In this document: in pieces, positions 1 through 18,328 of the stretch | Layout of the letters: each line of letters begins with the position of its first letter | Position numbering within the stretch: position 1 is the stretch's first letter | From: Mesorhizobium sp. YIM 152430 | GTDB taxonomy: Bacteria; Pseudomonadota; Alphaproteobacteria; Rhizobiales; Rhizobiaceae | Direction of reading: 5' to 3' | Assembly: GCF_029210365.1 (NCBI RefSeq) | Contig: NZ_JARGES010000020.1 | Location: forward strand, 124,001-188,000 | DNA: 64,000 bases | Translations under genes and position numbers: made by a program | Notes under the pieces: model-generated | What the model saw: the letters and a program-made list of their open reading frames with translations, nothing else | Told to the model about the DNA's origin: nothing | Databases searched by the model: none

Positions 1-692
1 AAGATCAGCGTCCGACCTTCCGCTGGATCGGCATCGAACCCCATCAAGGCGCGCTCGAACTCGGGAACGACGGCCGTCAGGACAAAGACGAGAACGCCCA
101 TCGCCGCAACGAGGACGAAAAGCGGATAGGCGAGCGAGGCGGAAATCCGCCGCCGCAGCTCTTCTGAGCGCTTGCGCTCGCGTGCGACGATCGAAAGGGT
201 TTCAGAAAGCCGCCCGTTGGCCTCCGCGATGGCGACCATGCTTACATAGGAAGGCGGGAAGAGCCTGGGATGATGCGCGAGCGCGTCCGCGAAGCGCTCG
301 CCCGAGCGCACCGACGCTGACAGTGCCCGCATCGTGGCGGCAAGCGCGCCTTTCTCGCCCGCCGATGCGATCGTCGTCAGAGCCTTGTCGAGCGTCATGC
401 CCGAGGAGAGAAGAATGGCAAGGTCCTCTGTCGCCACGGTGATCGCCGGCGCGGCAACGGCACGTCGCAAGCCGCTGTCGCGCCTGAGGGGTGCGCTTTC
501 CTCGGTCTCGACGCCAAGTTCGATCGGCATGAGCGCGAGCCGTTCGAGTTCTCCCAGCGCCCTGTCCCGCGTATCGGCTTCGAGCGAGCCCGCGACGATC
601 CGCCCGCCCGCCGCCATGGCCTTGTAGCGATAGAGCTGGCGGCCGGGGGCCGCGCGTCGCCAGGCCGCAGGGTGACGGGCGATCTGGTTCAT
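1..692 (-). CDS. gspF: Type II secretion inner-membrane protein GspF, partial (N-terminal 230 residues)
   Basis: GspF is the polytopic platform protein of the type II secretion machine; it couples the cytoplasmic ATPase GspE to the pseudopilus. The first residues (LYRYKAMAAGGRIVAGSLEA) are the standard cytoplasmic start of the family. A T2SSF domain follows, with the typical EDLAILLSSGMTLDKAL stretch near residues 75-95 and the first membrane helix near residues 188-212. The reading frame is open to the window edge, so the remaining roughly 170 residues lie outside. The ATG at 692 overlaps the stop of the upstream lipoprotein gene as ATGA, so the two are co-transcribed. PilC/TadC-type relatives are possible, but the N-terminus fits GspF best. 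Confidence 0.87.
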   Translation of the reverse strand, partial: MNQIARHPAAWRRAAPGRQLYRYKAMAAGGRIVAGSLEADTRDRALGELERLALMPIELGVETEESAPLRRDSGLRRAVAAPAITVATEDLAILLSSGMTLDKALTTIASAGEKGALAATMRALSASVRSGERFADALAHHPRLFPPSYVSMVAIAEANGRLSETLSIVARERKRSEELRRRISASLAYPLFVLVAAMGVLVFVLTAVVPEFERALMGFDADPAEGRTLI

Positions 693-1406: not shown

Positions 1407-2741
1407 ATGACAGACCATGCATTGACGCGGCGTGACTGGTTGAAGCTCGGGGGCGCGAGCCTGCTCGCTGCGGGAACCGCAACGGTGCCCAGTGAAGTCT
1501 TCGCTCAATACACCTGTCAGGTTTGCGACGTTCCGGCCGACGCGGCCCCGCCGCAAAAGACTTTCGAGCTCGAAATCGGCGACACCGACGCGCGCCTTGT
1601 CGATGGCGAGCGCGTGAACCTGCTGGCCTTCCGTCTTGCAAGTGCCAATGGCGCGTGGACCGTTCCCGGTCCCGTCCTGCGGGTCACCGAAGGCATGACC
1701 GTGCGCATCAAGATCACCAATCTGCGCAAGGAGATGCACGCCTTCGAGATCACCGGCATTCCTGAGAGCAAGACCGAGGTTGCACCGAACTGCTCGTGCT
1801 GGGTCCAGTTCACGGCGCCCGTCGGCGGCACCTACCTCTATCATGACGCGTTCGGGAACACGCCGCTCTATCGACTGCTCGGCCTTCACGGCGTCCTGGT
1901 CGTCGCGCCGCTCAATGGCGTCACCAAGAAAAATGCGACCAACCCGTATCCAAGCCACACGCCTTACAGTCTCGAGCTTCTGACGGCACCGCAGCGCAAC
2001 AATATCACCAAGCTCTTCAACGCTTTGGGAACGACGGAGCGGTTCCTCGGCGGCCCGGAAGGCAAGTGGGTGCCATGCACCGACGACGAAGACTATTCCC
2101 ATCAGGAGAAGGTCTGGGTGATGCAGGAGATCGATCCGCGCTTCCAGGCGCTGGTCGTGCGCGGCCAGCAACTGTTGTCGGCACCGCAACTCACCGGCGA
2201 CGTCGTCAACAATTTCGTGCCGCGCTATTTCCAGCTCAACAACCGCAGCGGCTTCGACCTCAATAAAGGTGAGGATATCTGTCCTGACAACTATATCGGG
2301 GAGCCGACCTTGATCCGCATGGTCAATGTCGGCATCGCCCATCACTCCCCGCACATCCACGGCAACCACGTATTCCGGCTATCACAGGCTGACCTCGATC
2401 CAGCATCGCCCACTTTCGGTCAGGTCCAGGTCGCGGACAACATCTTCGAGGTCGACACCTGGTCGATGTGGCCTATGGAACGACGCGACATATTGCTGCC
2501 CTTCGAAATCCCACCCGACATCCCCTACAAGCCACTGCTCGCGACCGATCCTCAGGGCATCCAGTTCGACCGGATGGTCGCCCGCCAGGCCAAGGAGCCG
2601 TTCCCGCTCCGCTACGTCGTTCACGATCATGTCGAGATGGCGACGACCGCCGGCGGTGGCAACTATCCGCAGGGCATGGTCACCCACTGGGAGATCATGG
2701 GCGGGCTCGGCGGACGGAAACTGCAGACGGCGCGGCTTTGA
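1407..2741 (+). CDS. Multicopper-oxidase-like protein A (Tat-exported, lacks type 1 Cys)
   Basis: A 444-residue cupredoxin-fold protein. The ATG at 1407 starts a twin-arginine signal (RRDWLKLGG, cleavage probably after EVFA); the longer in-frame start at 1317 has no such logic. The last domain keeps the canonical copper loop HSPHIHG (about residues 313-319), while the loop that is normally HCH reads HDH (about 406-408). The type 1 copper cysteine is therefore missing. The first domain has lost its usual pairs: HxHG became HAFEI and HxH became YHDAF. On its own it is not a complete blue oxidase. The next gene, in the same frame after one stop and 15 bases, carries the missing motifs, so the two probably work as a pair. 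An alternative is a copper-binding scaffold without oxidase activity. Confidence 0.82.
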   Translation: MTDHALTRRDWLKLGGASLLAAGTATVPSEVFAQYTCQVCDVPADAAPPQKTFELEIGDTDARLVDGERVNLLAFRLASANGAWTVPGPVLRVTEGMTVRIKITNLRKEMHAFEITGIPESKTEVAPNCSCWVQFTAPVGGTYLYHDAFGNTPLYRLLGLHGVLVVAPLNGVTKKNATNPYPSHTPYSLELLTAPQRNNITKLFNALGTTERFLGGPEGKWVPCTDDEDYSHQEKVWVMQEIDPRFQALVVRGQQLLSAPQLTGDVVNNFVPRYFQLNNRSGFDLNKGEDICPDNYIGEPTLIRMVNVGIAHHSPHIHGNHVFRLSQADLDPASPTFGQVQVADNIFEVDTWSMWPMERRDILLPFEIPPDIPYKPLLATDPQGIQFDRMVARQAKEPFPLRYVVHDHVEMATTAGGGNYPQGMVTHWEIMGGLGGRKLQTARL

Positions 2742-2756
2742 CGGAAGGCAAGAAAA

Positions 2757-3980
2757 ATGGCTGATGAGCTTACGACAGCGGCCGCATTGACGGCACTCGG
2801 CGGCGCGTTGGTCGCGACCTCGGCAGCATCCGCGCAGACGACGCTACCCCCGCCGGGACCGAAATCGACGGGCACGCCTGGTCCTGGTGAGTATGCCGGC
2901 GGCCAAGTTCGCTTCGATCGCACCGGCATCGGCGCCAACCTCACCTTTGGCAATTTCGGCTGCACCGTCTTCAAGGAAAACGCCAACACGCCCGACTGGA
3001 TGACGGCGAACGTCTATTTCGTGCGCAAGGTGCGCAACATGGACATCCGTATGCCCGACGGACGAGACCTGCGCTGCTGGATCTTCGAGGACACCCTTCG
3101 AACGAGCGGCAAGCGTGAACAATTGCCATCCGCAACGATCCGCGTTCAGGAAGACGACCTCGTCCATGTCAAGCTGGAGTCGAGCAAGGGATCGCATACG
3201 ATCCACCATCACGGCATAGAGCCGACGACCATGAATGACGGCGTCGGACATGTCTCGATGGAGATCACGGGCAGTTATATCTACCAGTGGCAGCCGAAGA
3301 AGGCCGGAACCTATTTCTATCATTGCCACAAGAACACCGTAACTCATTTCGAGATGGGTCTTTATGGGATGCTCATCGTCGATCCGAAGCCGGATGCCCA
3401 GGGTCTTGTCCGCGCCTACGAGGACGGACCGCACTATGATGTCGAGGCGATCTGGGCGCTGGACGACATGGATCCGCGGTGGCACCGCATTACTGACGAC
3501 GACCACGACGTCGGTCTTTGCGGCGACGATTCCGGGCTCAACATCTTCGAGCCGAAATACTTTCTCCTGAGCGGCACGCCATCGCGTCCGGGTGTCAACG
3601 TCACGAAGCAGAAGGTCGTGGCCAATGCTGGCGAGCAGATTCTGATCCGCCTCCTCAACGCCAGCTATTCGCTTCTTGCGGTCACGTTCGAGAGCTTGCG
3701 CGTCCAGATCATCGCGGTCGACGGGCACCCGTTGAACCGCCCCTGGAACCGGCCCGTTACCGTCCCCCCCGGCGAAACGATCTATCTGTCGAGTGCGCAG
3801 CGCTACGACATCATGATCGACACCTCCCTGCCGGCGAACAACAAGAAGAAGTACAAGGGCGTCAACCCGGTCACCTTCGAATTCCAGCACTGGATCACAC
3901 GCAAGCGCCACAACGCTGGCGACCCGCTCTACGATGGCATCGTGCGCACCACGATCGAGTTCCCGGGATGGTCGGCATGA
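2757..3980 (+). CDS. Multicopper-oxidase-like protein B (type 1 copper site in its first cupredoxin domain)
   Basis: A 407-residue two-cupredoxin protein. Domain 1 has HTIHHHG (residues 147-153) and YHCHKNTVTHFEMGLYG (from residue 188), giving Cys190, His197 and Met200 as likely type 1 copper ligands and His pairs for a trinuclear site. The second half has the non-ligand middle-domain look (QRYDIMIDT) and no further copper loop. The N-terminus is hydrophobic and ends in SAASAQ, like the end of a signal peptide, but it has no twin arginine and no positive start. It may ride out with protein A or use an unrecognised signal. The start has GGAAGG nine bases upstream. The stop overlaps the following SCO gene as ATGA. 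Confidence 0.83.
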   Translation: MADELTTAAALTALGGALVATSAASAQTTLPPPGPKSTGTPGPGEYAGGQVRFDRTGIGANLTFGNFGCTVFKENANTPDWMTANVYFVRKVRNMDIRMPDGRDLRCWIFEDTLRTSGKREQLPSATIRVQEDDLVHVKLESSKGSHTIHHHGIEPTTMNDGVGHVSMEITGSYIYQWQPKKAGTYFYHCHKNTVTHFEMGLYGMLIVDPKPDAQGLVRAYEDGPHYDVEAIWALDDMDPRWHRITDDDHDVGLCGDDSGLNIFEPKYFLLSGTPSRPGVNVTKQKVVANAGEQILIRLLNASYSLLAVTFESLRVQIIAVDGHPLNRPWNRPVTVPPGETIYLSSAQRYDIMIDTSLPANNKKKYKGVNPVTFEFQHWITRKRHNAGDPLYDGIVRTTIEFPGWSA

Positions 3981-4651
3981 GACGGATTCGAACGGCTTTC
4001 GTCGCGTTTGCCGCCGCCGTGATATGCGCGGACGCCAGTCCGTCGCTCGCGCATGACCGCACGACCCACGGCAAGCTGATGCACGAGGAAGCGGCGCAGA
4101 TCCGTGTCGATCCCGACTACAAGCCGCCGGACCCCGCAAGTCTCGGCGGAAGCTGGGATCTCGTCGACCACAATGGCAACCTCGTCACCGACAAGAACTT
4201 TCGCGGCAAGTGGATGCTGATCTTCTTCGGCTTCGCCGGTTGCCGCGAGGCATGTCCGGGCGCGCTGATGACGATGGGCGAGGCGATCGACCAACTCGGT
4301 CCTGACGGCAAGGCCATTCAGCCGCTCTTCGTCGATTTCTCGATGGAGGAACCGGATTATCTGGGCCTTGCCCAGTTCGTCTCCAATTTCCATCCGCGAA
4401 TGATCGGCCTGACCGGCGATCGCAAGCAGACCTTCCAGGCCGTCCGCAAGTTCAAGGTGCGCCGCGAATATGCGATGACCAACTTCTCCTCGAAGGAGAC
4501 CGGACCGCGCATCAACCACACAACCTATATCTACGTGATCGATCCGGAGGGCAGAACGCGCGGCTATTTCCACGATTCCCTGCCCGTCGAGGGCTATGTC
4601 GACGAGATTCGCTATCATCTGGCGCGTTACGAGGCGGAAGAACGCCAATGA
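3977..4651 (+). CDS. SCO1/SenC-family copper chaperone, first copy
   Basis: A 224-residue thioredoxin-fold protein with a cleavable signal (ending about ASPSLAHD). SCO proteins deliver copper, or supply thiol chemistry, during assembly of cupredoxin and CuA sites in the periplasm. The copper motif CxxxC is present as GCREACPG, and the third ligand is the histidine in INHTTYIYVID. The CREAC variant differs from the more usual CPxxC of the neighbouring copy. The ATG overlaps the stop of oxidase protein B (ATGA) and its own stop overlaps the second SCO gene, so it is the third gene of the operon. The likely client is the oxidase pair. Confidence 0.88.
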   Translation: MRRIRTAFVAFAAAVICADASPSLAHDRTTHGKLMHEEAAQIRVDPDYKPPDPASLGGSWDLVDHNGNLVTDKNFRGKWMLIFFGFAGCREACPGALMTMGEAIDQLGPDGKAIQPLFVDFSMEEPDYLGLAQFVSNFHPRMIGLTGDRKQTFQAVRKFKVRREYAMTNFSSKETGPRINHTTYIYVIDPEGRTRGYFHDSLPVEGYVDEIRYHLARYEAEERQ

Positions 4652-5232
4652 CGATCCGCAGCCTGTTCGTTTCGGGCGTCGCAGCCGCGCTGCTTGCAAG
4701 CGGTCCGCTCGCGCGCGCCGGCGCCGTCGACGACCATGGCCGGCCGCGCGGCGTCGACCTGGCAACCCTCGGCCGGCTCACGACCCAGGACGGCTCGCCC
4801 TTTGCGACCGCCGCGCTTCGCGGCAAACCGACGATCCTCTTCTTCGGCTACACGCACTGCCCCGAGGTCTGCCCGGCGACGCTTCTCGAAATGACGACCT
4901 ACCTGCGCGAGCTCGGCGAGGAAGCCGATCGCGTCAACGTCATCTTCGTCACCGTCGATCCCGAGCGCGACACGGTCGAGACGCTGGCGCCCTATCTCTC
5001 CAACTTCGACCCGCGCATTGTCGGCCTCACCGGCAGTATCGAGAATGTCGATGCGGTGGTGAAGGCTTTCGGCGCGACGCGCTTCGAAAGCACGACCGGC
5101 GGCGCATATTACAGCGTCAACCATACCGCATCGACGTTCCTGATCGATCGCTATGGCCTCCTTGCGCGCATCGTCGACTATGGCGACGACCGCGAACTGG
5201 CGAAGAGCGCCGCGCGCCTTCTCGCGCAATAG
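4648..5232 (+). CDS. SCO1/SenC-family copper chaperone, second copy
   Basis: A 194-residue SCO protein with a signal peptide (MTIRSLFVSGVAAALLASG). It has the classical copper motif YTHCPEVCP and the distal histidine in VNHTASTFLID, all on a thioredoxin fold (FVTVDPERDTVE is the usual central strand). The start overlaps the previous stop as ATGA. Two adjacent SCO genes with different motif contexts suggest division of labour, for example one copper donor and one thiol reductase, or one chaperone for each oxidase subunit; this is inference. Confidence 0.9.
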   Translation: MTIRSLFVSGVAAALLASGPLARAGAVDDHGRPRGVDLATLGRLTTQDGSPFATAALRGKPTILFFGYTHCPEVCPATLLEMTTYLRELGEEADRVNVIFVTVDPERDTVETLAPYLSNFDPRIVGLTGSIENVDAVVKAFGATRFESTTGGAYYSVNHTASTFLIDRYGLLARIVDYGDDRELAKSAARLLAQ

Positions 5233-6010: not shown

Positions 6011-7342
6011 TCATCGTTCCTTGAGAGCTCTTTGGAACTGGTCCGTGATTGGTTTTGCGAGGTAGGAGAGTGCTGTTCTTTGTTGGGTTTGGACGAATGT
6101 TTCGACGGGCATTCCGGGGATGAGGTGTTTTCCGTCGAGTTTGTCGAGTTGGCCGGGATCGAGTTCGATGTCGGCGAGGTAGTAGATGTCGCCGGTTGCG
6201 GGGTCTCGGGTTGTTGCGGGGGAGACGTGGGCGACCTTGGCGGTGAGTTCGGGGGTTGTTCTCTGGTTGAAGGCGGAGAAGCGCAGGCGCGCGGCCTGGC
6301 CTGCGGCGACCTGGTCGATGGCGGCGGGAGCGATTTTGGCTTCGATCTTGAGCCTTGCGTCGAGCGGCACGATGGTGGCGAGGATTTCGGCCGGGCTGAT
6401 GACGCCGCCGATGGTGTTGACGTTGAGTTCGTTGATGGTTCCGGCGATCGGCGCCTTGATGTCGGTGCGCGCGAGACGGTCATTGGCGGCGGTCTGGCGT
6501 TCCTTGAGTTCGGCAAGGCGGGTTTCGACCAGCGAGAGTTCGCGCTGCGCCTCGGTGCGGGCGTTCTCGTCGATGGCGATGATCTGCAGGCGGATCTCGC
6601 TCATGCGCGACCTGGCGCGGGCGATGGCGGCGTCGATCTCGCCGCTTTCGCCCTTGAGGCGGGCGCGGTCGCGGGCGCCGGCCGAGGCGCGCGAGCCTTC
6701 GACGAGGCCCTTGTCGGCAAGCCCCTTGATCTTGACGTATTCGTCCTCGACGAGGACGAGTTCGTCGTCCTTGGCCAGTTGCTGGGACTTCAGGCCGGTG
6801 ATCTCCTCGCCGGTCTGGGCGATGGACAGTTCGAGTTGCTGCTTCTGGCTTTCGCGGTGGGCGCGGTTGCCCGCGAACAGCCGCATCTCGCCCTTGACCA
6901 GCATGGCGACCTTTGCCTCGCCTTGGTCTATGTCGGGCCCGAGGATGAGGGCTCCCTGGCCGTCGCGTTCGGCGATCAGACGGGCGCGGCGCACTGCCAG
7001 TTCATCGATCTGGGTGCGCAGGATCGCAAGTTCCGCCCGGGTCTGGGCGTCCTCGAGGCGGATCAGGATGTCGCCTTCGCGCACATGGTCGCCTTCGCGC
7101 ACGGCGATATCCGAGACGATGCCGCCGTCGCGGTGCTGGATGGTCTTCAGATTCTGATCGACGGCGACGACGCCCTGGGCAATGACGGCGCCCGACAATT
7201 GCGCGGTGGCGGCCCAGCCGCCGGCCCCGCCGATCAGGAGGAGGGCGAGCGCGGCGCCGGTGAGCATCCGCCCGCCCATCTTGTAGCTGGCCGTTCCGGC
7301 CGGGTTGCGGTCCGGCGTGGAGCTCGTCGTCGTGGTTGCCAT
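6011..7342 (-). CDS. HlyD-family type I secretion periplasmic adaptor
   Basis: A 443-residue membrane fusion protein linking an ABC exporter to a TolC-type outer-membrane channel. One membrane helix lies at about residues 26-46, followed by a barrel-sandwich half-motif (VREGDHVREGDILIRLEDAQ), a long coiled-coil hairpin (about 95-290) and the second half-motif with ADIKAPIAG-like residues (RTDIKAPIAGTINEL). The ATG at 7342 is preferred because AAGGAAGAG lies just upstream; a GTG at 7372 overlapping the previous stop is the alternative. It is the last gene of the type I secretion operon. No TolC homologue is visible here, so the channel must be encoded elsewhere. Confidence 0.9.
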   Translation of the reverse strand: MATTTTSSTPDRNPAGTASYKMGGRMLTGAALALLLIGGAGGWAATAQLSGAVIAQGVVAVDQNLKTIQHRDGGIVSDIAVREGDHVREGDILIRLEDAQTRAELAILRTQIDELAVRRARLIAERDGQGALILGPDIDQGEAKVAMLVKGEMRLFAGNRAHRESQKQQLELSIAQTGEEITGLKSQQLAKDDELVLVEDEYVKIKGLADKGLVEGSRASAGARDRARLKGESGEIDAAIARARSRMSEIRLQIIAIDENARTEAQRELSLVETRLAELKERQTAANDRLARTDIKAPIAGTINELNVNTIGGVISPAEILATIVPLDARLKIEAKIAPAAIDQVAAGQAARLRFSAFNQRTTPELTAKVAHVSPATTRDPATGDIYYLADIELDPGQLDKLDGKHLIPGMPVETFVQTQQRTALSYLAKPITDQFQRALKER

Positions 7343-7368
7343 CTGGCTCTTCCTTGTCCTGTTGCCGG

Positions 7369-9798
7369 TCACGCCGTCTCGACCATGACGAGAACGTGGC
7401 GTCCGTCGATGATGATGGTGGTCTCGTAGGTGTCGTCCCGATTGAAGTCCGCCTCGATGATGGTGCGGGCATATCCGTCGAGTTCCTCGATACGGGTGCG
7501 CACCGCGAAGTCATTCTCGTCCACTTTTTTGCCGTAGACCTTCTCGAACTGATCCTCGAGATCGTCGAAGACCTTTTCGAAGAGGTCGTATTTGTTCATG
7601 CGGATGCGGTCGCCCGCCTTGAAGTCGTGGATCTCGAAGACCAGCGGCTGCGTGGTGTTTTCGCCGGGGCCGAGAAACTCGAACACGTTCTCGCCCGCCC
7701 CGCCATAAAGCGCGACCTCGTCGGTGCCGACGATGAAGTGGTCGTCGCCCGCCCCGCCGATCACGGTCTCGAAGCCGGTGATCGTGTCGCAGCCGATCTC
7801 GATGCCGCTGGCCCGGCCCTGATCCAGGTCGATCAGGAGATTGCCGGTGGCGGCGGAGTAGTCGAGCGTATCGCAGCCCTCACCGCCGTCATAATGGTCA
7901 TCGGCCCCGTCCATCGCGGCGATCACCGTGTCGTTGCCGGCGCCCGCAAGGATGGTGTCGGCGCCCTGTCCATCCTCGATGATGTCGTCGCCATCACCCG
8001 CCTCGACATGGTCGTCGCCGGCGCCGGCGACGATGTGGTCGTTTCCTGCGCTGCCGACGATGATGTCGTCGCCCGCCCCCGCGATCACCTTCTCGAAGCC
8101 GGCGATCGTGTCGCAGCCGATTTCCACGCCCTGCGCGGTGCCCAGTTCCAGGTCGATGGCCAGCTTCAACTGGGCCAGCGAGTAGTCGAGCGTGTCGTAG
8201 CCGCAACCGCCGTCATAAAGATCGTCATCGCCGTCCATCGCCGCCAGCACCGTGTCGTCGCCGGCCCCGCCCAGAACGATGTCGGACCCTGCCCCGTCGG
8301 ACAGGAAGTCGTCGCCCTCGCCGCCCTCGAGCCGGTCATTGCCCGCACCGCCGAACAGGCGATCATTGCCGCTGCCGCCAAACAGCCGGTCGTCGCCGGC
8401 CCCGCCGTCGAGATGGTCGTCGCCTTCGTCACCATAAAGGACGTCGTTGCCGGCGCCGCCGAACAGCATGTCGTTGCCGGTCCCGCCCGACAGGAAGTCG
8501 TCGCCGTCCTCACCATAAAGGATGTCATCGCCCGCCTCGCCGAACAGGCGGTCATTGCCCGCACCGCCCCACACGATGTCGTTGCCGCGGCCGGCAAACA
8601 CGACGTCGTCGCCCGGTCCGGCAAAGACCGTGTCGTCGCCGTCCCCGGCAAGGATGTGGTCGTTGCCCGCCCCGCCATGGATGACGTCGTTGCCGGCGCG
8701 CCCGTCGATCACATCGTCGCCGTCGCCGCCCTCGATGTCGTCTGCGCAATTGGAACCGGCGATCACATCGTCGCCGTCCGTGCCCGCGAACCGGCCCCGC
8801 TCGAGGACCGTGAAGTGGGCGCTCTGGAGCACCGACAGCGCGCCGTCCGTTATGGTGTAGGAAAGCGTCACCGGGCCGTAGCCGAACGGGGCCGCCTGGA
8901 AGGACCAGCCGGCATCGGTCGGCGTCAAGGTGCCGGAGGAGGCCGAAAGCCCGGTGATCGTCAGGACATCGCCGTCCGGGTCGCTCGCCCCGCGCAAAAG
9001 GTCCAGCAGCCCGATCCCCAAAATGGCACAGGCGGTGATGTCGTAGAGATAGACGGGACCGGCAACGCGCGGCGCGCGATTGGCGGCCTCCTGGTCGTCC
9101 TCGTTCTCGTCCTCCTCCTCGTCGTCATCGCACGGTCCGCCGGTGCCCGGCCCGGCACAGGCCGGATCGTCGGGATTGCCGGGGCCGGGACCCGGCCCGG
9201 GCGTATCGGGATTGCCGGGATTGTCCGGGTTGCCCGGATTGCCCGGATTGCCGCTGCCGCCCGGACCGCCTGCAGGCGGCGTCTCCCCGCCCGGTCCTGA
9301 CGGCCTTGACCCGCCGCCGCCCACGAAGTCGGGAAGATTGTCGTTGGTGGCGCGCAGGATCTGGCGGTAGGGCTCGACCAAAGTGAAGGCATCGGGCTCG
9401 GCGCCGGGGAAGAAGAAGTCCACATCCGGTGACGCGATCAGGTCGAACCTGGCCGGCGGCTGCAAGGTGACCAGGGTCCCGCCCGAGAAGACGCCGGGCC
9501 CTTGATCGGCGCCCGGCGTGCCGGTGGCAAGCTCATCTGGCGCCGGCTGGGCTTCGGTCTGGGTGATCCCGGCGACCTGGGGGTCGCCCTTGTCCGCCGC
9601 CTCGAAGTTCCCCTGATCGTCCTCGGCCGGCCGCGTCCAGCCGGGGAAGATCGACTTCAGATAAAGGCCGATCCCCATCAGGAAGAGGAAGAATGCATAA
9701 GGCGTCTTCGACTTCTCATGCGCGTTCTTCAGGATATAGGCCTCGGCCGGGTCGGCGGGCCGGGTCTCGGACTGCGTCGCCTTTGCGGTGATGATCAT
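7369..9798 (-). CDS. RTX calcium-binding protein with N-terminal membrane segment
   Basis: An 809-residue protein. Residues 33-50 (AFFLFLMGIGLYLKSIF) form a probable membrane helix. A Gly/Pro/Asn linker (about 163-213), an acidic run (about 223-234), a cadherin-like region (about 250-335) and about thirty RTX nonapeptides (GGxGxDxxx, about 336-690) follow. It contains an internal duplication: a block with DTLDYS..IEIGCDTI.GFE occurs near residues 520-583 and again near 633-686. RTX repeats fold when they bind calcium outside the cell and usually mark type I substrates, yet a near-N-terminal helix is unusual in a secreted substrate. The start overlaps the ABC gene stop (ATGA). It may be anchored and act as an exporter accessory or a surface-retained protein. 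Confidence 0.85.
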   Translation of the reverse strand: MIITAKATQSETRPADPAEAYILKNAHEKSKTPYAFFLFLMGIGLYLKSIFPGWTRPAEDDQGNFEAADKGDPQVAGITQTEAQPAPDELATGTPGADQGPGVFSGGTLVTLQPPARFDLIASPDVDFFFPGAEPDAFTLVEPYRQILRATNDNLPDFVGGGGSRPSGPGGETPPAGGPGGSGNPGNPGNPDNPGNPDTPGPGPGPGNPDDPACAGPGTGGPCDDDEEEDENEDDQEAANRAPRVAGPVYLYDITACAILGIGLLDLLRGASDPDGDVLTITGLSASSGTLTPTDAGWSFQAAPFGYGPVTLSYTITDGALSVLQSAHFTVLERGRFAGTDGDDVIAGSNCADDIEGGDGDDVIDGRAGNDVIHGGAGNDHILAGDGDDTVFAGPGDDVVFAGRGNDIVWGGAGNDRLFGEAGDDILYGEDGDDFLSGGTGNDMLFGGAGNDVLYGDEGDDHLDGGAGDDRLFGGSGNDRLFGGAGNDRLEGGEGDDFLSDGAGSDIVLGGAGDDTVLAAMDGDDDLYDGGCGYDTLDYSLAQLKLAIDLELGTAQGVEIGCDTIAGFEKVIAGAGDDIIVGSAGNDHIVAGAGDDHVEAGDGDDIIEDGQGADTILAGAGNDTVIAAMDGADDHYDGGEGCDTLDYSAATGNLLIDLDQGRASGIEIGCDTITGFETVIGGAGDDHFIVGTDEVALYGGAGENVFEFLGPGENTTQPLVFEIHDFKAGDRIRMNKYDLFEKVFDDLEDQFEKVYGKKVDENDFAVRTRIEELDGYARTIIEADFNRDDTYETTIIIDGRHVLVMVETA

Positions 9799-11546
9799 GC
9801 CGATACACGCGCGGATACGCGGGCGCGCGCCTCCTTGCGTTGCGGTTGCGGCTGCGGCTGCGGCTGGCCGATGATCTCGTCCTTCGGCCCGAACGCGGCG
9901 AGCCGGCCGGCCTGGATCACAGCGATCATGTCGATGGCGGCAAGCGCGCTCGGCCGGTGAGCGACCACGACCGCGATGCCGCCGCGCGCCTTGACGGCCT
10001 CGATCGCCGCCGTCAGCGCCGCCTCGCCCTCCGCGTCGAGGTTCGAGTTCGGCTCGTCGAGCACGACCAGGAACGGATCGCCGTAGAGCGCCCGGGCCAG
10101 CCCGATGCGCTGGCGCTGGCCGCCCGACAGCGCCATGCCCTGCGGCCCCAGCGCCGTGTGGTAGCCTTCCGGAAGACGCACGATCATCTCGTGCACGCCC
10201 GCCGCCCGCGCCGCCGCCACGATCGCCCGCGGCTCGGCCTGCGGGTCGAGACGCGCGATGTTCTCCTGGATGTCCCCGTCGAGCAGCGCGACGTCCTGGG
10301 GCAGATAGCCGACATGGCGTCCGAGCGCTTCGCCATCCCATTGCGAAAGTTCCGCCTCGTCGAGCCGCACCGCCCCGCGCAGCGTCGGCCAGATGCCGGT
10401 CAGCGCGCGCACCAGCGTCGTCTTGCCCCCGCCCGACGGGCCGATGACGCCGAGCGCCTGCCCGGCCTTCATCTCGAAGGCGACATCGCTCAAAAGCACC
10501 CGGCCCGAACCCGGCGCGGCCACCGTGATCCCCTCCACCCGCAGCGAGGCCGCCGGGGCCGGCAGCGCCATCGGCGGGCGGGCGTCGGCAAGCGCGATCA
10601 CCGTCTCCTTCAGCCGGGAGAACGCCGCCCGCGCCGCAACGACGCTCTTCCAGTTGCCGATCGCAAGGTCGATCGGCGCCAGCGCCCGCGCCGAGGCCAC
10701 CGAAGCGGCGATGATCGCCCCTGGCGACAGTTCGCCCAGGATCGTCAGATACGCGCCCAGCCCCAGCACCGCCGATTGCAGGATCATCCGCAGCACCCGC
10801 GACAGTGCCCCGAACGTGCCGGAGATGTCGTTGGTGCGCGTCTGCAGGTCGAGATGGTCCTCATTGGCCCGCGCGAACCGCGTCACCGCGCGCCTCTGGA
10901 ACCCCATCGCCTTGACGATGTCGGCATTGCGCGCGTTCGAATCCGCGATCGTGTTGCGCGCCACCAGCGCCTGCTGCGTCGAGCCCGACAGCCGCCGCGT
11001 CAACAGCTCCGTGACCACCGTCAGGACGGTCAGCACGAAGGCGCCGCCAAGCGTCAGCGCGCCAAGCAACGGATGCAGCATGTAGACGAAGATCAGGAAC
11101 ACCGGCACGAAGGGCAGGTCGAACAGCGCCATCGGACCCTGGCTGCCCAGAAAGCCGCGCACCGTGTCGACGTCCCGGCCACGCTCCAGGGCCTCCGCCG
11201 TCGAAAAGCCGAAGCGCGGCATGTCGATCGCCACCTCGTGCGCCAAAGGCGCGATCCGCGCGTCCAGCCGCGCCCCCACACGCACCAGGATCTGCGAGCG
11301 GATCACGTCGAACAGGCCCTGGAACACGTAAAGCCCGATCGCCAGGATCGAGATCGCCACCAAAGTCGGCATCGACCCGCTCGTCAGCGCCCGGTCGTAG
11401 ATCTGCAGCATGTAGAAGGCGCCCGTCAGCGCCAGGATGTTGATGACGCCGGACACCGTGAACAGATAGGCCACGATGCCGCGCATCCCTTTCGTCAGCT
11501 GTTCCACCTTGCGACGCGCCGTCGCGCTCTTTGCATTCTTGCCCAT
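9795..11546 (-). CDS. Type I secretion ABC permease/ATPase, PrtD family
   Basis: A 583-residue exporter half-transporter: membrane domain about residues 25-300, nucleotide-binding domain about 330-560 with Walker A GPSGGGKTT, signature LSGGQRQR and Walker B FLVVLDEPNSNLD. It lacks the N-terminal C39-like peptidase domain, as expected for the PrtD/AprD class that exports RTX proteins with C-terminal signals. The C-terminus carries a (QP)4 run encoded by a GGCTGC hexanucleotide repeat near 9843-9866. It lies between two RTX genes, so the haem peroxidase upstream is its most likely cargo. It forms the inner-membrane part of the pump together with the HlyD protein. Confidence 0.93.
   Translation of the reverse strand: MGKNAKSATARRKVEQLTKGMRGIVAYLFTVSGVINILALTGAFYMLQIYDRALTSGSMPTLVAISILAIGLYVFQGLFDVIRSQILVRVGARLDARIAPLAHEVAIDMPRFGFSTAEALERGRDVDTVRGFLGSQGPMALFDLPFVPVFLIFVYMLHPLLGALTLGGAFVLTVLTVVTELLTRRLSGSTQQALVARNTIADSNARNADIVKAMGFQRRAVTRFARANEDHLDLQTRTNDISGTFGALSRVLRMILQSAVLGLGAYLTILGELSPGAIIAASVASARALAPIDLAIGNWKSVVAARAAFSRLKETVIALADARPPMALPAPAASLRVEGITVAAPGSGRVLLSDVAFEMKAGQALGVIGPSGGGKTTLVRALTGIWPTLRGAVRLDEAELSQWDGEALGRHVGYLPQDVALLDGDIQENIARLDPQAEPRAIVAAARAAGVHEMIVRLPEGYHTALGPQGMALSGGQRQRIGLARALYGDPFLVVLDEPNSNLDAEGEAALTAAIEAVKARGGIAVVVAHRPSALAAIDMIAVIQAGRLAAFGPKDEIIGQPQPQPQPQRKEARARVSARVSA
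9843..9866. repeat. Short hexanucleotide tandem repeat inside the ABC exporter gene
   Basis: Four near-perfect units of the type GGCTGC encode the Gln-Pro run near the C-terminus of the exporter. Such tracts can vary in copy number by slippage; six-base units would keep the reading frame. Confidence 0.6.
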
Positions 11547-11662: not shown

Positions 11663-14600
11663 CTAGAGATGGAAGTCGTCGGCGCTCAGATTGTGCGAGC
11701 CCTTGATCGCGAACTTGTAGTCGGCCTGCGCGCCCCCGCTCGTGTTGAGATGCACGATCGTGTAGTCGCCATCCTCACGCGCCTCGTGGCTGACCATCAA
11801 TTGGCCCCGCCCCGTAAACGCCTCCCCCGTCACCAGCGAGAAGGATTGCCGGCCCGCAAGGCACGCATTGGCATCGGCCATCGAAAGGTCGATCCGGTCG
11901 CCGGGCGCAAAGCCCAGGATCGTGTCGCCGTCGGCATCGGCCGCCGACAGGAAGCGGAACGTGTCATGCCCGTCGGGACCGGACCCCCCGCCATCCATCA
12001 CATTGACCGCACGGCTCGCCGTGATCGTGTCGCTGCCCGAGCCGGTGATGATGTTCTCGAACCCCCAGATCGTGTCGCTGCCGGTCTGCACCGAGAACAC
12101 ATGGCCGCGGCCCATGAAGCCAGTCCCCAGATCGGCAATGATGTCGGCCGTGATCGACGACATGTCGAGCGTGTCGTTGCCCCAGTCGCCGTCCCCGTCG
12201 CCGCCGTAATAGACGTCGTCGCCATCGCCGGCCTCCGCCACCACCCGGTCGTCGCCCGCCCCCGCAAACACGATGTCGTTGCCCGCGCCGGCATTGATCC
12301 AGTCATTGCCCGCACCGCCATAGATCCGGTCGTTGCCGCCATCGCCGAACAGCGTGTCGTTGCCCGCGCCGCCGAAGATGTCGTCATTGCCGTCGCCGCC
12401 ATGGATCACGTCGCGGCCATCGTCCCCGAACAAATAGTCATTGCCCGCGCCGCCAAGGATCACGTCGTCACCGGCGCCCCCAAGGATCGTGTCGTCACCG
12501 CCATGCCCGATCAGCGTGTCATTGCCCGACGTCCCGATCAGAACATCCGCAGACGCAGTGCCGACCTGGTAAAGCGGACCCGTTCCCGCCGCAGGGCCCG
12601 GAACAACCGCCCCCCCATCGCCCGCACCGCACGAGTCGTCATCATCATCATCATCGTCGTCGTCGTGATGATCGTCGTCGTCCCAATCGTCGTCGTCGTC
12701 ATCGTCGTCCGCCCACGCATACTCCTCCTCGCGGTCCTTCACCTTCACCTTCGGACGACCGCCAGGACCCGCCGCAAACGAAACCGAATGCGTCCCGTCG
12801 CTCAAAACCGTAATCCCGCCAACCGTCGACGCAGAAAAAGCCGAAAGCTCAGACCCCGCAGGCAACTCGATAACATCCTGAGGACGCAAAGAACCCAAAA
12901 TCGTGTCATTCCCACCATTCGAACGGAAAACAACACGATGCGCAGATCGGAGGGCAGATATGTCAATCACGTCATCGCCAGAAGAACCCTCGATCCGGAT
13001 GGTGTTTTCGAGAAGGGTCGTGTTGGTGAAGTCGCCCACGATCTCGAACGTGTCCCCGCCGCCGCCGCCATGGATCACGATCTCTTCGATCCCTCGCAAC
13101 TGAGCGATGACGGAGCCGAAATTCGTCCCGTTCCGCGTAACGATGATCTCGGCATCGGGATCGAAGTTGACGTTGGTGGTCGACGCATTCAAATTCTGAT
13201 TGCTGAATTCGATCCACTCCTGCCGCGTCCAGATGGTGTAGTGTTCCTGCGTCGCATTGCCGTTGACGACGAACGTGTCGATGCCTTCGCCACCGTCGAT
13301 GCGGTCGCGGCCATCATCATTCTCGCCCGGTGCGTTGGCGTTCCAGATGATCGTATCGTCGCCGGCGCCGCCATCGATCGTGTCTGCACCGCCATCGCCT
13401 TGAATTATATCATCGCCTTCATCGCCGAAGATCGTGTCGGCACCCCCGCCGCCGTAAATCGTGTCATTGCCGGCGCCGCCATGGATCGTATCCGCGCCGC
13501 CGTCCCCATGAATCTCGTCGTCGCCGTCATCTCCGAAAATCGTATCGTTGCCGCCCCCTCCACGGATGCTGTCATCGCCGGCACCGCCATGGATCAAGTC
13601 GGCGCCGCCTAGGCCGAAGATGTCGTCCGAACCGTCTGTGCCGATGATCGTATCCGCCCCACCCGTGCCGTTGAGGACCAGGCCGATCGGACCGAAATCC
13701 CGAACGATCTCTTCCGGGTTGCCAGAGCCGTCTATGAAGGTGACGACGAGGCGCAGCGGCATGTTTGCGTAGGTCCCCAGAAGGAACAATGACGGCCCGG
13801 TGCCTCCGGGAATCTGGGTCCATCCATTGATTCCGAAGACCTGCCAAGAGATGGACGTCGTCCCTTCCGTGATGCCGTCCGGGTCCGAGACGCTGTCAAG
13901 GTCGAGCACGAGATCGCTGCCCACGATCGCCCGTCCCGCCACCTCGATCGGATTCGGCGCGCGGTTGGCGGAGATCGTCATGTCGGCGAATCTGATCCGC
14001 TCAATATTGTAAAGGGTGTCGCGCCCGTCGGACTGACGGTTGCGTCCGGTAATCGGATCGACCGCGCCCGCCGTCTGCGTGATGTGCTCGACGATGATGC
14101 TGCCATCAGCATTGTAGGTGATTTCGTAATTGGCCCGAACGTCCCAGTAAACGGCGGTGTCGATGCCGCTGTCGTCCCAGAGAATCTCGCGCACGATGTG
14201 CAACTGGCTTGGATTGATCGCGCCTTCGACCATCCATGTGGTCAGCGGTTTGGTGACGCCGTTGATGGTCACCGCATCCTTCAGGCTGTCGACCGTGGCG
14301 ATCTCGTTTTCCTCGGTGTTTTGCTCGCCATAGCCCACGATACGGATGCGAACGTTCAGCCAGGCATCGCCGTCGATGATGTCGTCGCCGCCGCGCCCTT
14401 CGAACGTGTCGCTGCCGCCACCGCCGAGCAGGATGTTGCCGTGGGCGAATATCTTCTTGGTAACGCCCGAACCGTCGGCCCAATATTCCCCGTCGACCAG
14501 CATTTCGGCCTTGACGATCTGACTCAGTCCGGAAATGCGTGCGATCGCGGCCTCGTCCAGCTCGTTGTGACGGAAATTTCCCTCCGGGGTCGGGTCGAAA

Positions 14601-17600
14601 ATGACGTCGACGCCGTCTTCGAAGGTGCGATCGTCGCCGCGGATGACATCGTCGTGAATCCAGCCCGACACCGCCTCGACCTGGTCATAGCGATCACGCA
14701 GCACCTCGGCAGGCAAGGTGTCGAAGATGGGAAAGTTCATGTCGGCGTCGCCGGAGGTCGGCTGCCCCTTGAAGATCACCCAGTCGTGACCCCATACGCC
14801 GATGAACTTCTGGATGCCCTCGCCGGCAAACATGATGTCGTCGCCGGAATCGGCATCATAGTCCGTGTCGCCGCTGCCGCCGTTAAGCACGTCGTGTCCG
14901 ACGATGGTGGAATTGAAGAATATGTCGCCATTGTCGCCGACGACGCCGTCGAAGCGGCCGCCAGCCTCGATCCAGTCGTCACCTTCATTGCCGAACAGAA
15001 CGTCAAATCCGTCGCCACCCAGCATGAAATCGTCGCCGGTGCCGCCGCGCATCTCCCCGCCGTCCTTGCCGGCGACCAGGAAGTCCTTGCCCGAGCCGCC
15101 AAAGACGAGGTTGGTTCCGCTGCCTGCGTGGATGACGTCATTGCCCGCCCCGCCCTTGAGCATCGCGACCGCGCCGATATCGGTTCCCGTGCTGGTGATG
15201 ATGTCGTCGCCGTCGCCGCCGTCGACATGGTCGACGCCGTTGCCGACCTCGATACGGTCATTGCCGCCGAAGCCCCAGATCGTGTCGTCGCCCCCGCCCG
15301 AGATGATGTGATCGTCGCCTTCCGTGCCGGCGATCGTGATGTGGTCGAAGCCATTGTAGCGGAAGAAGGCGACCCCGCCGTTTTCCTCTGCGGTCTTGCG
15401 CTCGACCAGCCTTGAGACAGCCTGGAGGAAGGGATTGGAGTGCTCGGGATCGGCAAGCCCTGTCAGCATCATCTGCTTGTCGAAATCGACATAGAAGACA
15501 TGGTCGGATGCGAAGAACACGTTGTCCGGCAGGGCAAAGCCGGTCGCGCCGAGATCTGTGTTGCGCATGATCATCTTGGCCAGGGAGTTCTGCTCGAGCT
15601 CGGTGCCAAGATTCAGGCCTTGCGTGCGCGACAGGTAGTAGAACCGGTCGCCGTCCTGAAGGTTTTCGAGCTGCAACTCGAAAACGAACGAGAACGTAGA
15701 GCCGAGCATACCACCAAACAGCATCTTGCGCTCGGCAAGACCGCCGATCCAAAGATCGATATCGTCGACGCCGGTCTGGGCAGCCGGCGCATTCAACCAG
15801 GCAAGCCGCGCGGCCTTTTCTGCCGCCGTCTCGTCAGGCGAGCCGAAGACGAGCGTCATGGCTGCGTCGCGCTTGCCCTCGATCGTGGTCGCAGCCGTAA
15901 TTATCGAATGACGGCCATATGCAGCGATGAAATTGACGATCGATGCGGGATTGGCCAGATGGAGGGCGAAGTCCGACCAGCTTTCGTATGGCTTCAGGCG
16001 CGTGTCGCCGTCGGTCATCTCCATGAACTGCGCGCGCGCCTGGTTGAGCGTCGGCATACCGGTTTCACGGCCACGCGCGATATTGATGGCCGCCAGATCG
16101 AGCGGCAGTCCAACCAGTTCGTTCCGCAGAACGTTTGTCACGAACTCGTCGATCTCGTTGCCGACCTGTCCGCTCATGCCGCGCATGATCGCGCCGGCGG
16201 CCTGCGCCTGCGTCATCCCGTTGTCGCTGAATTGCATAGGATTCAGGAATGCCCCGAACAGGTCGATGTCGTCCCGTTCACCGTTCGAGTTCACGCGTTC
16301 GACGGTCTCGTTCAGCATCGAGTGACCGAAGCGATAGACGACATGGGCGAACTCGGCGAAGATCGCCGGATTGATGTCGACGATTGTCTTCCCGGCCTGG
16401 ATGTCGAAAATGTCGATGTCGGGCTGGATCGAGCGGGCGAATTCTTCGAAGACGAGATGCTGATACTGCATTTCGGTGGTGAACCGGCCGACCTGGAACA
16501 ACCGCTCGCCATGCCATTGCAGTTGCCCGATCGCCTCATCCGTCGTCGGCAGTTCGGCAACCGGAACGCGAAGCCAGCTATTGAGGAAGGCTAGATCGCC
16601 CGTATCCAGAATGACGGTCTTCGTGTGCTCGATCAGACGATTATGTTCGGCGTGGAAGACGAAATGGATCGCAGACAGCGCAATGTTCTCGTTGCCGCGC
16701 CCGTCACCGGTGATGAAATGCTTGTCCAGCTTTTCATTGTCGTAGAAGCGGTTCGGATTGATGTAGCGCGGATTTGCGGCGCTTTCGTCAAGGGCCGGAT
16801 CGAAGTCAGGATGAATGGCAACGAATTCGAGCTGGCGCAGCAGATGGGCCTCGGGGTCAGGTCCGTTGGCGGGCGGCTGGTACCCCGCCACATAATTGGG
16901 GTTCTCGATAAGCGTGACCCCCATGCCGACGACGTCGTCGTGGTCGGCATACATCTTCTGGCCACGCGAATTGAACAGCGCCGCGTCATGCGCGATGTCG
17001 TCGAGAAACGCGATACCGGTTCTGGCTGCGCCTTCTTCATGCGGATTGAGCGGCGCGTCCGGATGGCCCTCCTTGTAGATGGCCTGCCCGCCTCCAGTGA
17101 GACCGACCATCAACTGGGCAAATCCATTTTCGCCCGGGATAAAATTGCCATACGCATCCACGGCGACGACCGGCACGTTCAGAACGTCGGCGTCCTGAAG
17201 GTCGATGCCGAGCATCTCCTTTGCCTGCTTCTTGACGTCCCCCCAGGTTGCCAGTCCCCCGCTCGGCGATTCCAGCAGATGGCCGGTGGCGACAGGCTTG
17301 CCATCGACGAGTTTGTATTCGCGCAGGAAGACCTGATGCGAGGCGTTGGACGTGTAGGTCTGGTTCTGGTCGATCCAGGGCGTGACCGCATTGCCCGCAG
17401 CGTCGCCGGTCGTCACGCGCGTCAGAACCATGAAATTGGTATGCGGCGTTGCAGGATTGTAAAGCGGATCGTCCGGCGAGAGCGGCATGTAGACCGTGCC
17501 GTTTCCGCCCTTTGCCACCAGGTCGAGGCCGTGGTCGAAGAACTGGCCGAAGATGGTGAAAATGGAATTATACGATGCGGACAGACCCTCGTCGGGTGCC

Positions 17601-18328
17601 TTGTTGGGAATGAGTACGGTCAGGCCGTCCATCTGGATGTCGTGATCGTCGAGCAAGTCGGCAAGCGCTTGCCGGGCCTGCACGAGTTCGCTGCCGCCGG
17701 CCATGGCGGTTTCCAGTTGCGTTTGGCGCTCGGCCAGAGCGGCTACATAAAATGGACGCAGGAACTCCGTTTCCGGCGTCAATGCGTCGATGTTCGCCTG
17801 GATGACGGCGATCTGGCTTTGAAGCAGCGCGATCGTGTCAGGCAACGTTTCGGAATTCCCCTCCGCAGCCTTGACTGCCTTGTGGGCGGCCACGATTGCG
17901 GAAACCACGTCAAGCAGGTCCTGACCTTCGAGCCCGGAATCTCTCAATGCGGCAGCAATCGCAGCCGGATTGTCGAGGGTCTGATCGACGATCAAATTGG
18001 AGATGAGCCTCGGTTCATAGTCGACGACCGAACCGGACTGGCCGTAATCATTGTTGTTGTTGTTGGTCGCGTGCGCATAGGCCGAGCCCATGCTCCCGCT
18101 CCCGGTCCGATGGTCGGCATTGGTCAGTGGCAGGAAGGGTTGCTGCGATGCGCCCCACTGCTCGCGTCCGGCAACCAGGTTGTTGTAGCTGCCGTCCACG
18201 GTACGCAGACCGTAGGGCAGAAGGGGATGCTCGATAAGGTCTGTCAGCGGTGTGCCCGACGCGTGCTGTTCCGCGATGACAATCTGCTTCAAGATGAATT
18301 CGAGGTCGTGACGAACGAGCGTAACCAT
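11663..18328 (-). CDS. Giant RTX animal-type haem peroxidase (MopA-like), type I secretion substrate
   Basis: A 2221-residue secreted enzyme. The ATG at 18328 has AAGGGAG upstream; the longer frame to 18421 lacks a site. The N-terminal half is an animal haem peroxidase domain: distal His in GQFFDHGLDL (about residue 265), IHFVFHAEHNRL, proximal His in RFGHSM (about 667), and LPLDLAAINIARGRETGMP. RTX blocks follow at about 1005-1175, 1560-1680 and 1930-2110, with a poly-Asp tract interrupted by two His (about 1870-1900). There is no Sec signal, as expected for type I export; the exporter is downstream. Bacterial relatives include MopA, an Mn(II)-oxidising peroxidase of Aurantimonas and Erythrobacter. 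Function here (Mn oxidation, halide or superoxide chemistry, defence) is inferred. Confidence 0.9.
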   Translation of the reverse strand: MVTLVRHDLEFILKQIVIAEQHASGTPLTDLIEHPLLPYGLRTVDGSYNNLVAGREQWGASQQPFLPLTNADHRTGSGSMGSAYAHATNNNNNDYGQSGSVVDYEPRLISNLIVDQTLDNPAAIAAALRDSGLEGQDLLDVVSAIVAAHKAVKAAEGNSETLPDTIALLQSQIAVIQANIDALTPETEFLRPFYVAALAERQTQLETAMAGGSELVQARQALADLLDDHDIQMDGLTVLIPNKAPDEGLSASYNSIFTIFGQFFDHGLDLVAKGGNGTVYMPLSPDDPLYNPATPHTNFMVLTRVTTGDAAGNAVTPWIDQNQTYTSNASHQVFLREYKLVDGKPVATGHLLESPSGGLATWGDVKKQAKEMLGIDLQDADVLNVPVVAVDAYGNFIPGENGFAQLMVGLTGGGQAIYKEGHPDAPLNPHEEGAARTGIAFLDDIAHDAALFNSRGQKMYADHDDVVGMGVTLIENPNYVAGYQPPANGPDPEAHLLRQLEFVAIHPDFDPALDESAANPRYINPNRFYDNEKLDKHFITGDGRGNENIALSAIHFVFHAEHNRLIEHTKTVILDTGDLAFLNSWLRVPVAELPTTDEAIGQLQWHGERLFQVGRFTTEMQYQHLVFEEFARSIQPDIDIFDIQAGKTIVDINPAIFAEFAHVVYRFGHSMLNETVERVNSNGERDDIDLFGAFLNPMQFSDNGMTQAQAAGAIMRGMSGQVGNEIDEFVTNVLRNELVGLPLDLAAINIARGRETGMPTLNQARAQFMEMTDGDTRLKPYESWSDFALHLANPASIVNFIAAYGRHSIITAATTIEGKRDAAMTLVFGSPDETAAEKAARLAWLNAPAAQTGVDDIDLWIGGLAERKMLFGGMLGSTFSFVFELQLENLQDGDRFYYLSRTQGLNLGTELEQNSLAKMIMRNTDLGATGFALPDNVFFASDHVFYVDFDKQMMLTGLADPEHSNPFLQAVSRLVERKTAEENGGVAFFRYNGFDHITIAGTEGDDHIISGGGDDTIWGFGGNDRIEVGNGVDHVDGGDGDDIITSTGTDIGAVAMLKGGAGNDVIHAGSGTNLVFGGSGKDFLVAGKDGGEMRGGTGDDFMLGGDGFDVLFGNEGDDWIEAGGRFDGVVGDNGDIFFNSTIVGHDVLNGGSGDTDYDADSGDDIMFAGEGIQKFIGVWGHDWVIFKGQPTSGDADMNFPIFDTLPAEVLRDRYDQVEAVSGWIHDDVIRGDDRTFEDGVDVIFDPTPEGNFRHNELDEAAIARISGLSQIVKAEMLVDGEYWADGSGVTKKIFAHGNILLGGGGSDTFEGRGGDDIIDGDAWLNVRIRIVGYGEQNTEENEIATVDSLKDAVTINGVTKPLTTWMVEGAINPSQLHIVREILWDDSGIDTAVYWDVRANYEITYNADGSIIVEHITQTAGAVDPITGRNRQSDGRDTLYNIERIRFADMTISANRAPNPIEVAGRAIVGSDLVLDLDSVSDPDGITEGTTSISWQVFGINGWTQIPGGTGPSLFLLGTYANMPLRLVVTFIDGSGNPEEIVRDFGPIGLVLNGTGGADTIIGTDGSDDIFGLGGADLIHGGAGDDSIRGGGGNDTIFGDDGDDEIHGDGGADTIHGGAGNDTIYGGGGADTIFGDEGDDIIQGDGGADTIDGGAGDDTIIWNANAPGENDDGRDRIDGGEGIDTFVVNGNATQEHYTIWTRQEWIEFSNQNLNASTTNVNFDPDAEIIVTRNGTNFGSVIAQLRGIEEIVIHGGGGGDTFEIVGDFTNTTLLENTIRIEGSSGDDVIDISALRSAHRVVFRSNGGNDTILGSLRPQDVIELPAGSELSAFSASTVGGITVLSDGTHSVSFAAGPGGRPKVKVKDREEEYAWADDDDDDDDWDDDDHHDDDDDDDDDDSCGAGDGGAVVPGPAAGTGPLYQVGTASADVLIGTSGNDTLIGHGGDDTILGGAGDDVILGGAGNDYLFGDDGRDVIHGGDGNDDIFGGAGNDTLFGDGGNDRIYGGAGNDWINAGAGNDIVFAGAGDDRVVAEAGDGDDVYYGGDGDGDWGNDTLDMSSITADIIADLGTGFMGRGHVFSVQTGSDTIWGFENIITGSGSDTITASRAVNVMDGGGSGPDGHDTFRFLSAADADGDTILGFAPGDRIDLSMADANACLAGRQSFSLVTGEAFTGRGQLMVSHEAREDGDYTIVHLNTSGGAQADYKFAIKGSHNLSADDFHL
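12636..12720. repeat. Trinucleotide (ATC/GTC) tract encoding poly-Asp
   Basis: A run of GTC/ATC triplets on the plus strand encodes about 25 aspartates broken by Trp and two His on the minus strand. It lies just before the last RTX block of the peroxidase. Mixed GAT/GAC codons argue for selection on the peptide, not only slippage. Confidence 0.8.

Follow-up and report, generated by a model that had tools for sequence, protein, structure and literature searches.

The locus near the start of the window (the whole stretch of 64,000 nucleotides that was analysed) raises the question of whether two adjoining genes, A and B, which each code for a protein bearing part of the copper ligands of a multicopper oxidase, together specify a single enzyme and, if so, what that enzyme might oxidise. 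Our answer to the first part is that their products are very probably the subunits of one multicopper oxidase with a shared active site, a judgement that leaves the substrate aside. Both open reading frames that a sequence-only reading had reported here were recovered at the same positions (Table 1). The true start of A is probably the codon at 1407 (MTDHALTRRDW...), as judged from its Tat motif, and the protein carries a Tat-type signal at its N-terminus (ALTRRDWLKLGG). Gene B lies in frame with A, the spacer between them consisting of one TGA and five codons. Profile PF07732, the first cupredoxin domain model of multicopper oxidases, matched both proteins and, in a profile search of the whole source genome, these two only. 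Pfam searches, structure searches and an AlphaFold model all placed two cupredoxin domains in each chain, and the chains proved to be paralogous across both domains (21% identity over 295 residues, E 3e-9). A single gene split by a sequencing frameshift was excluded, since A and B are paralogues that span the same two domains and are separate in dozens of loci. An NCBIfam search of A and B gained no specific family.

Table 1 Features of the locus; positions are counted from the first nucleotide of the window
Feature	Positions	Strand	Remarks
End of divergent type II secretion cluster, gspF	1..665	-	gspG-M, C, E, D and prepilin peptidase gene upstream of window
Gene A, Tat-signalled two-domain cupredoxin protein, 444 aa	1407..2741	+	Second domain with half trinuclear site
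A loop H313-S-P-H316-I-H318-G, type 2/3 His pair of domain 2	2343..2363	+	Aligns with HAIHTHG of 3g5w domain 2
A loop H406-D407-H408, second type 3 His pair	2622..2630	+	Identical HDH in 3g5w/2zwn domain 2
Gene B, two-domain cupredoxin protein, 407 aa	2757..3980	+	First domain with type 1 site and other half-site
B loop H147-T-I-H150-H-H152-G	3195..3215	+	From sequence, conservation and structure-based alignment
B loop H189-C190-H191-x5-H197-x2-M200, type 1 ligands and type 3 His pair	3321..3356	+	
SCO1/SenC-like copper/thiol protein	3968..4651	+	Start overlaps end of B
Second SCO1/SenC-like protein	4648..5232	+	
HlyD-type membrane fusion protein, type I secretion system	6011..7372	-	
RTX protein with cadherin-like and bacterial Ig domains	7369-10341	-	
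ABC transporter, type I secretion system	9795..11546	-	Adjoins MopA-like gene
MopA-like protein, 2252 aa, animal haem peroxidase domain and RTX repeats	11663..18421	-	PF03098 1.5e-59, PF00353 2.1e-68

The copper ligands of the two proteins were found to be complementary. Domain 1 of B holds those of a type 1 site (H147, C190, H197 and M200) together with half of a trinuclear site (H150, H152, H189 and H191), the remaining trinuclear half (H316, H318, H406 and H408) is located in domain 2 of A, and both domain 1 of A and domain 2 of B are devoid of copper loops. The claim that HSPHIHG and HDH belong to A only, and HTIHHHG and HCH-x5-H-x2-M to B only, was thereby borne out. Conservation was counted in an alignment of 85 A and 81 B sequences: in A, H316 and H318 were present in 85/85, H313 in 83/85 and H406 and H408 in 83/83; in B, H147, H150 and H152 were present in 81/81, H189, C190, H191 and H197 in 80/80 and M200 in 72/80. 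A ligand pattern conserved to this degree across the alignment is not due to chance. All complete homologues of A lack the domain 1 half and all those of B the domain 2 half; specifically, none of the rows among the aligned homologues showed an H-x2-H-x-H loop in domain 2 of B, and four apparent copper loops in domain 1 of A belonged to N-terminally incomplete rows. The sequence-only reading had also described A as lacking a type 1 Cys, which is true of the source-genome protein but special to it, as HCH occurs at the corresponding loop in 62 of 83 A relatives, although these HCH-bearing proteins still lack the downstream type 1 His, position 412 being Ser in 74/85. H313 was considered as a spare type 1 ligand and excluded, domain 2 of the blue copper oxidase 3g5w sharing the loop H-A-I-H-T-H-G. 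The axial Met is replaced by Leu in B of Erythrobacter SD-21 and a few others; this substitution generally raises the potential of a type 1 site.

Homologues were gathered from plasmid records and then by one scan of 85,000 genomes with the A alignment; class-wide single-sequence searches for relatives of A and B returned generic oxidases only. Hosts of the pair were found among Alphaproteobacteria, Gammaproteobacteria, Actinomycetota, Nitrospirota, Desulfuromonadales, Bacillota and others (at least five phyla), and Indioceanicola profundi carries it on two plasmids. Nearly all complete loci have both genes on the same strand with A immediately 5' of B, the exceptions being mostly contig ends. 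The stop codon of A and the start codon of B share a four-base overlap in many actinobacterial loci, the two genes occupy adjoining frames in Arthrobacter FW305-BF8, and ten actinobacterial loci code for a single A-B fusion protein whose open frame spans about 790-870 codons, the fusion frame of L116 measuring 1168 codons from stop to stop. On one Arthrobacter plasmid (L065, 5737-8084) an apparent frameshift inside the N-terminal part of B interrupts the fusion, and this locus adjoins an Nramp gene and a metal-dependent regulator. Multiple copies of the pair were also observed, about seven in Skermanella aerolata (the multicopy loci listed being L082, L084-L088 and L112) and four in one Nitrospirota genome (G292).

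Across 197 Micrococcaceae genomes A and B were present in an identical set of 24 and both absent from the other 173, with no genome holding one only (Fisher 2e-31, a statistic that ignores kinship); the strict co-occurrence that the sequence-only reading had looked to as a check (24/24 vs 0/173) was thus found in this family. In the family to which Porphyrobacter AAP82 belongs, 200 genomes were scanned and both genes were detected at full score in the same three. Some Arthrobacter-group genomes contain extra copies of A without an adjacent B, B always being located elsewhere in those genomes; plasmid pTC1 carries A and no B, and one B was found without A nearby in the Micrococcaceae genome set. 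The unpaired A-type proteins of the Arthrobacter group (L066 5365-6945, G357:C1:582537, G458:C1:4504332, G471:C16:28330 and G417:C41:21579), one of which adjoins mntH, may partner B in trans or may be something else.

In order to model the complex, positions 1407-3977 were read through the stop codon as a single chain and submitted to AlphaFold with 72 aligned homologues, plasmid-record rows being excluded. The joined model reached a mean pLDDT of 84.9 and a pTM of 0.86, values to be read with the proviso that single-chain folding may favour contact between the halves; for a natural Arthrobacter fusion the mean pLDDT was 84.5 and the pTM 0.89. Foldseek comparison of both models with the PDB returned MnxG first, with clotting factors V and VIII and then ceruloplasmin ranking next. 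With VIA-align, residues 49-855 of the A-B model were superposed on ceruloplasmin residues 1-699, which we take to be its first four domains (522 residues aligned, 3.8 Å, Z 19.6). This overlay brings domain 2 of A and domain 1 of B to ceruloplasmin domains 2 and 3, one of three pseudo-equivalent cluster sites. The best 50 VIA-align rows for the natural fusion were two-domain matches only, so that its own four-domain overlay is drawn solely from Foldseek and the pTM. The predicted structure sets domain 2 of A against domain 1 of B in a ceruloplasmin/MnxG-like layout, as an active site at the A-B interface would have it, and we infer from this model that the eight cluster His converge there.

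The distribution of export signals was also uneven between the two proteins: a Tat motif was recognised in 64 of 85 A sequences, whereas the N-terminus of B had neither a Tat motif nor a hydrophobic stretch in 59/68. This asymmetry, taken with the methanotroph-type pairs described below, in which B has an export signal of its own, is what Tat co-export of a folded A-B complex predicts, because Sec takes no passenger. The N-terminus of B in the source lineage is weakly hydrophobic, with no basic residues, and the case for hitchhiking is weaker there. Methanotroph-type pairs (L119, L130, L133, L137 and L146) bear a Sec-like N-terminus on B, and A is also Sec-like in all four of them in which its start is present.

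A Tat signal on A and usually none on B could alternatively mean that A is an escort, which carries B through Tat or delivers its copper and then departs, leaving B as a lone type 1 electron carrier or self-paired. Export of copper enzymes with such an escort is known from the tyrosinase proteins MelC1/MelC2, and the adjoining SCO genes show the importance of copper delivery. Yet the four invariant His of A, placed exactly as in an oxidase half-site, would be needless in an escort, permanent A-B fusions occur, and B alone supplies four of the eight cluster His; we regard this explanation as very unlikely. Even less probable, in our estimation, is that the proteins are relics with no trinuclear cluster between them, B being a blue copper protein of the mononuclear kind and A a protein that binds copper or has a structural role. 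Ligands are indeed gone from half of each chain, and cupredoxin families can lose catalysis, as exemplified by SufI, factor V and MCORP (in part after PMC4203857), but an exactly complementary ligand set would not survive in relics, and all eight cluster His have stayed invariant in at least five phyla despite divergence at non-ligand positions. The domains in the PDB closest to domain 1 of A are those of copper nitrite reductase (NirK), of which the pair might be a divergent form; TIGR02376, however, scored only 34.8 and 39.1 bits against a cut-off of 296.3, and both type 3 HxH pairs are conserved in A-B. NirK does not possess the HxH pairs of a type 3 site. An identity as NirK was ruled out by score and ligands, and this is the reading to which we attach the least credence, the chance being almost negligible.

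Overall, one oxidase with an active site built at the A-B interface, as the sequence-only reading had proposed, is well supported by the complementarity and conservation of the ligands, the linkage of the genes, their natural fusions, their co-occurrence across genomes, the asymmetry of the export signals and the predicted arrangement. The fusions and the missing export signal of B constitute further independent support for a single shared site, and the pair looks like a real, undescribed two-part oxidase. We propose that it originated by duplication of a type C two-domain oxidase, after which A would have retained only the trinuclear half of the C-terminal domain and B that of the N-terminal domain along with the type 1 copper. 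The substrate would give up electrons to the type 1 copper of B, from where they would travel through C190 and its flanking His to an oxygen-reducing trinuclear cluster held between domain 2 of A and domain 1 of B. A would bring the Tat signal, B being exported while bound to it, the SCO proteins would probably aid copper loading, and the neighbouring type II system of many Alphaproteobacteria would probably carry the complex outside. Its enzymatic activity, export route and stoichiometry are what we infer here.

The genes surrounding the pair were compared in 30 loci. SCO-type genes, of which the window contains two, were found nearby in about 23 of these, mostly alphaproteobacterial, and PCu(A)C in six, neighbours that are as expected of a copper enzyme. 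Type II secretion genes were located at most 6 kb from the pair in about 16 of the 30, a neighbourhood which suggests that secretion to the outside may follow Tat export. The extended locus L149 (6033-16665, mostly upstream of the window) contains a complete type II cluster that is oriented divergently from the A-B operon and has a gene for cytochrome c' on its far side. A conserved Tat-signalled DUF4352-like protein is encoded just 5' of A in about 17 actinobacterial loci (L120, L123, L124, L129 and others). A large conserved secreted protein is encoded near the pair in Desulfuromonadales and Arthrobacter (L094, L101, L105, L108 and L065), with CHRD and cadherin-like domains in L094 and PKD-like domains in L065, and a MauG-type dihaem protein adjoins the pair in some Desulfuromonadales.

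With regard to the substrate, the window itself codes for a MopA-like protein in which an animal haem peroxidase domain and RTX calcium-binding repeats are both present, the architecture of MopA, and which is 46.5% identical over 1225 aa to the MopA region of Erythrobacter SD-21. By homology this protein is a candidate Mn(II) oxidase in its own right. The RTX protein with cadherin-like domains encoded near it is likely a surface or biofilm protein using the same type I system as its MopA-like neighbours. According to the accessible portion of the published account, which makes no mention of the A-B pair, MopA is a haem peroxidase Mn(II) oxidase of 2138 aa characterised in Erythrobacter SD-21 (PMC6247904). 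The gene order in SD-21 is A, B, SCO-like, regulator and a peroxidase gene whose open frame runs to 2151 aa, which is taken to be mopA, judged by strain and length. Peroxidase genes of the same kind lie close to the pair in L072, L073 and L096. Within the Micrococcaceae a long open reading frame with the same Pfam peroxidase domain was detected in 23/24 genomes with the pair versus 9/173 without it (Fisher 1e-21, ignoring kinship), and within the Alphaproteobacteria the peroxidase was present in 10/12 pair genomes versus 0/141 in a sample of the class, a comparison that likewise ignores kinship. The position of the pair beside mopA in SD-21, the source genome's own MopA-like peroxidase and this strong co-occurrence are new beyond the sequence-only reading.

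The likeliest setting for A-B, and a plausible one to which we give slightly less than an even chance, would therein be Mn(II) oxidation together with a MopA-type peroxidase. A bolder proposal, which we advance more tentatively as a possibility, is that an ancient cross-phylum two-gene oxidase, active only as the A-B complex, works with MopA in the Mn(II) oxidation of bacteria as its hitherto unrecognised copper partner. In such a partnership A-B might, for example, make or consume Mn(III), or give the haem enzyme its oxidant, and the partners would be secreted separately, A-B via Tat and type II and MopA via type I. The chances are evenly balanced that the oxidase is real and unrelated to manganese, acting on phenols, Cu(I), Fe(II) or some other substrate, and that the link with MopA reflects a shared habitat; this alternative concerns the substrate only and leaves the shared active site untouched. 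It is favoured by pairs that occur without a MopA-type peroxidase, in Desulfuromonadales, one Nitrospirota genome, Bacillus EB01 and a gammaproteobacterium, so that Mn oxidation cannot be the sole role and other substrates are possible, and by the finding that a peroxidase gene lies within about 6 kb of the pair at only 4 fetched loci. Against it stand the adjacency to mopA in SD-21 and the alike neighbourhoods in L072, L073 and L096, the contrast in peroxidase content between Micrococcaceae genomes with and without the pair, which was obtained within one family, the Nramp/MntH genes that neighbour pair genes on two Arthrobacter-group plasmids, and MnxG as the closest fold.

If true, the shared site of A-B would offer a clear example from nature of gene duplication having left an oxygen-reducing copper cluster shared by two separate proteins. 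Relatives with an intact site, split pairs and proteins that have fused again are all extant, and their coexistence makes a long-proposed step in the evolution of ceruloplasmin-type oxidases directly testable. The usual annotation is 'hypothetical' for A, or 'multicopper oxidase domain' protein for either gene, and as each gene is annotated singly, expression of one alone would yield an inactive protein. The adjacency to mopA in MopA's own strain supplies Mn(II) oxidation with a concrete new candidate on its copper side and adds to the question of what copper and haem enzymes each contribute to that process. As far as the open-access literature goes, what is new is a real and widespread heteromeric multicopper oxidase, with a link to Mn oxidation that can be tested.

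Among known systems, the closest to A-B are the type C two-domain oxidases, of which a type 1 copper in the N-terminal domain is the defining trait (PMC13151041). The sequence-only reading had placed the type 1 copper in the 'wrong' domain; this position is normal in type C (PMC13151041), and the loops of B match 3g5w and 2zwn in ligands and spacing. Like the Nitrosomonas europaea blue copper oxidase (3g5w) and a metagenome laccase (2zwn), the pair has two cupredoxin domains per chain, a type 1 copper in domain 1 (HTIH-x-HG and HCH-x5-H-x2-M) and the loops H-x2-H-x-HG and HDH in domain 2. More specifically, domain 1 of B aligned with both structures with identical ligand spacing, and domain 2 of A with that of 3g5w, including H-x2-H-x-HG, HDH being matched by sequence inspection. 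Type C enzymes are homotrimers. Their cluster is expected where domain 1 of a chain meets domain 2 of a different one, and likewise in A-B. Unlike A-B, type C enzymes are the product of one gene with both half-sites in each chain; since the half-sites of A-B are on separate paralogues, only the interface of A domain 2 with B domain 1 can be active. By sequence comparison A and B make up a type C two-domain oxidase whose parts are spread over two chains and, as the pair departs from the rule of both half-sites per chain, it is filed as a type C variant. In a tree, A, B and the intact type C-like oxidases formed three supported groups (100/100, 100/99 and 96/88), which indicates that the A/B split is old and probably a single event.

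In bacterial six-domain oxidases the cluster is located between domains 2 and 3 (PMC3600357), and the ligands of A and B would occupy the same domains of an A1-A2-B1-B2 chain. MnxG, the Bacillus Mn oxidase (9bxa), was the top Foldseek match of both joined models. Unlike MnxG and the ceruloplasmin-type six-domain oxidases, A-B has four domains and usually two genes, and its type 1 copper is in the third domain (B1), as opposed to domain 2 in the bacterial six-domain enzymes. A search of the open-access literature for split, heteromeric or four-domain multicopper oxidases found only the fungal heterodimeric laccases. Those of the Pleurotus POXA3 type are described as heterodimeric. In these laccases the large subunit is already a whole oxidase, and no copper ligands come from the small one. 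Lastly, MopA is a haem enzyme, unlike the copper protein A-B, and its likeness to the pair is one of genomic partnership only, its gene lying downstream of A-B-SCO in SD-21.
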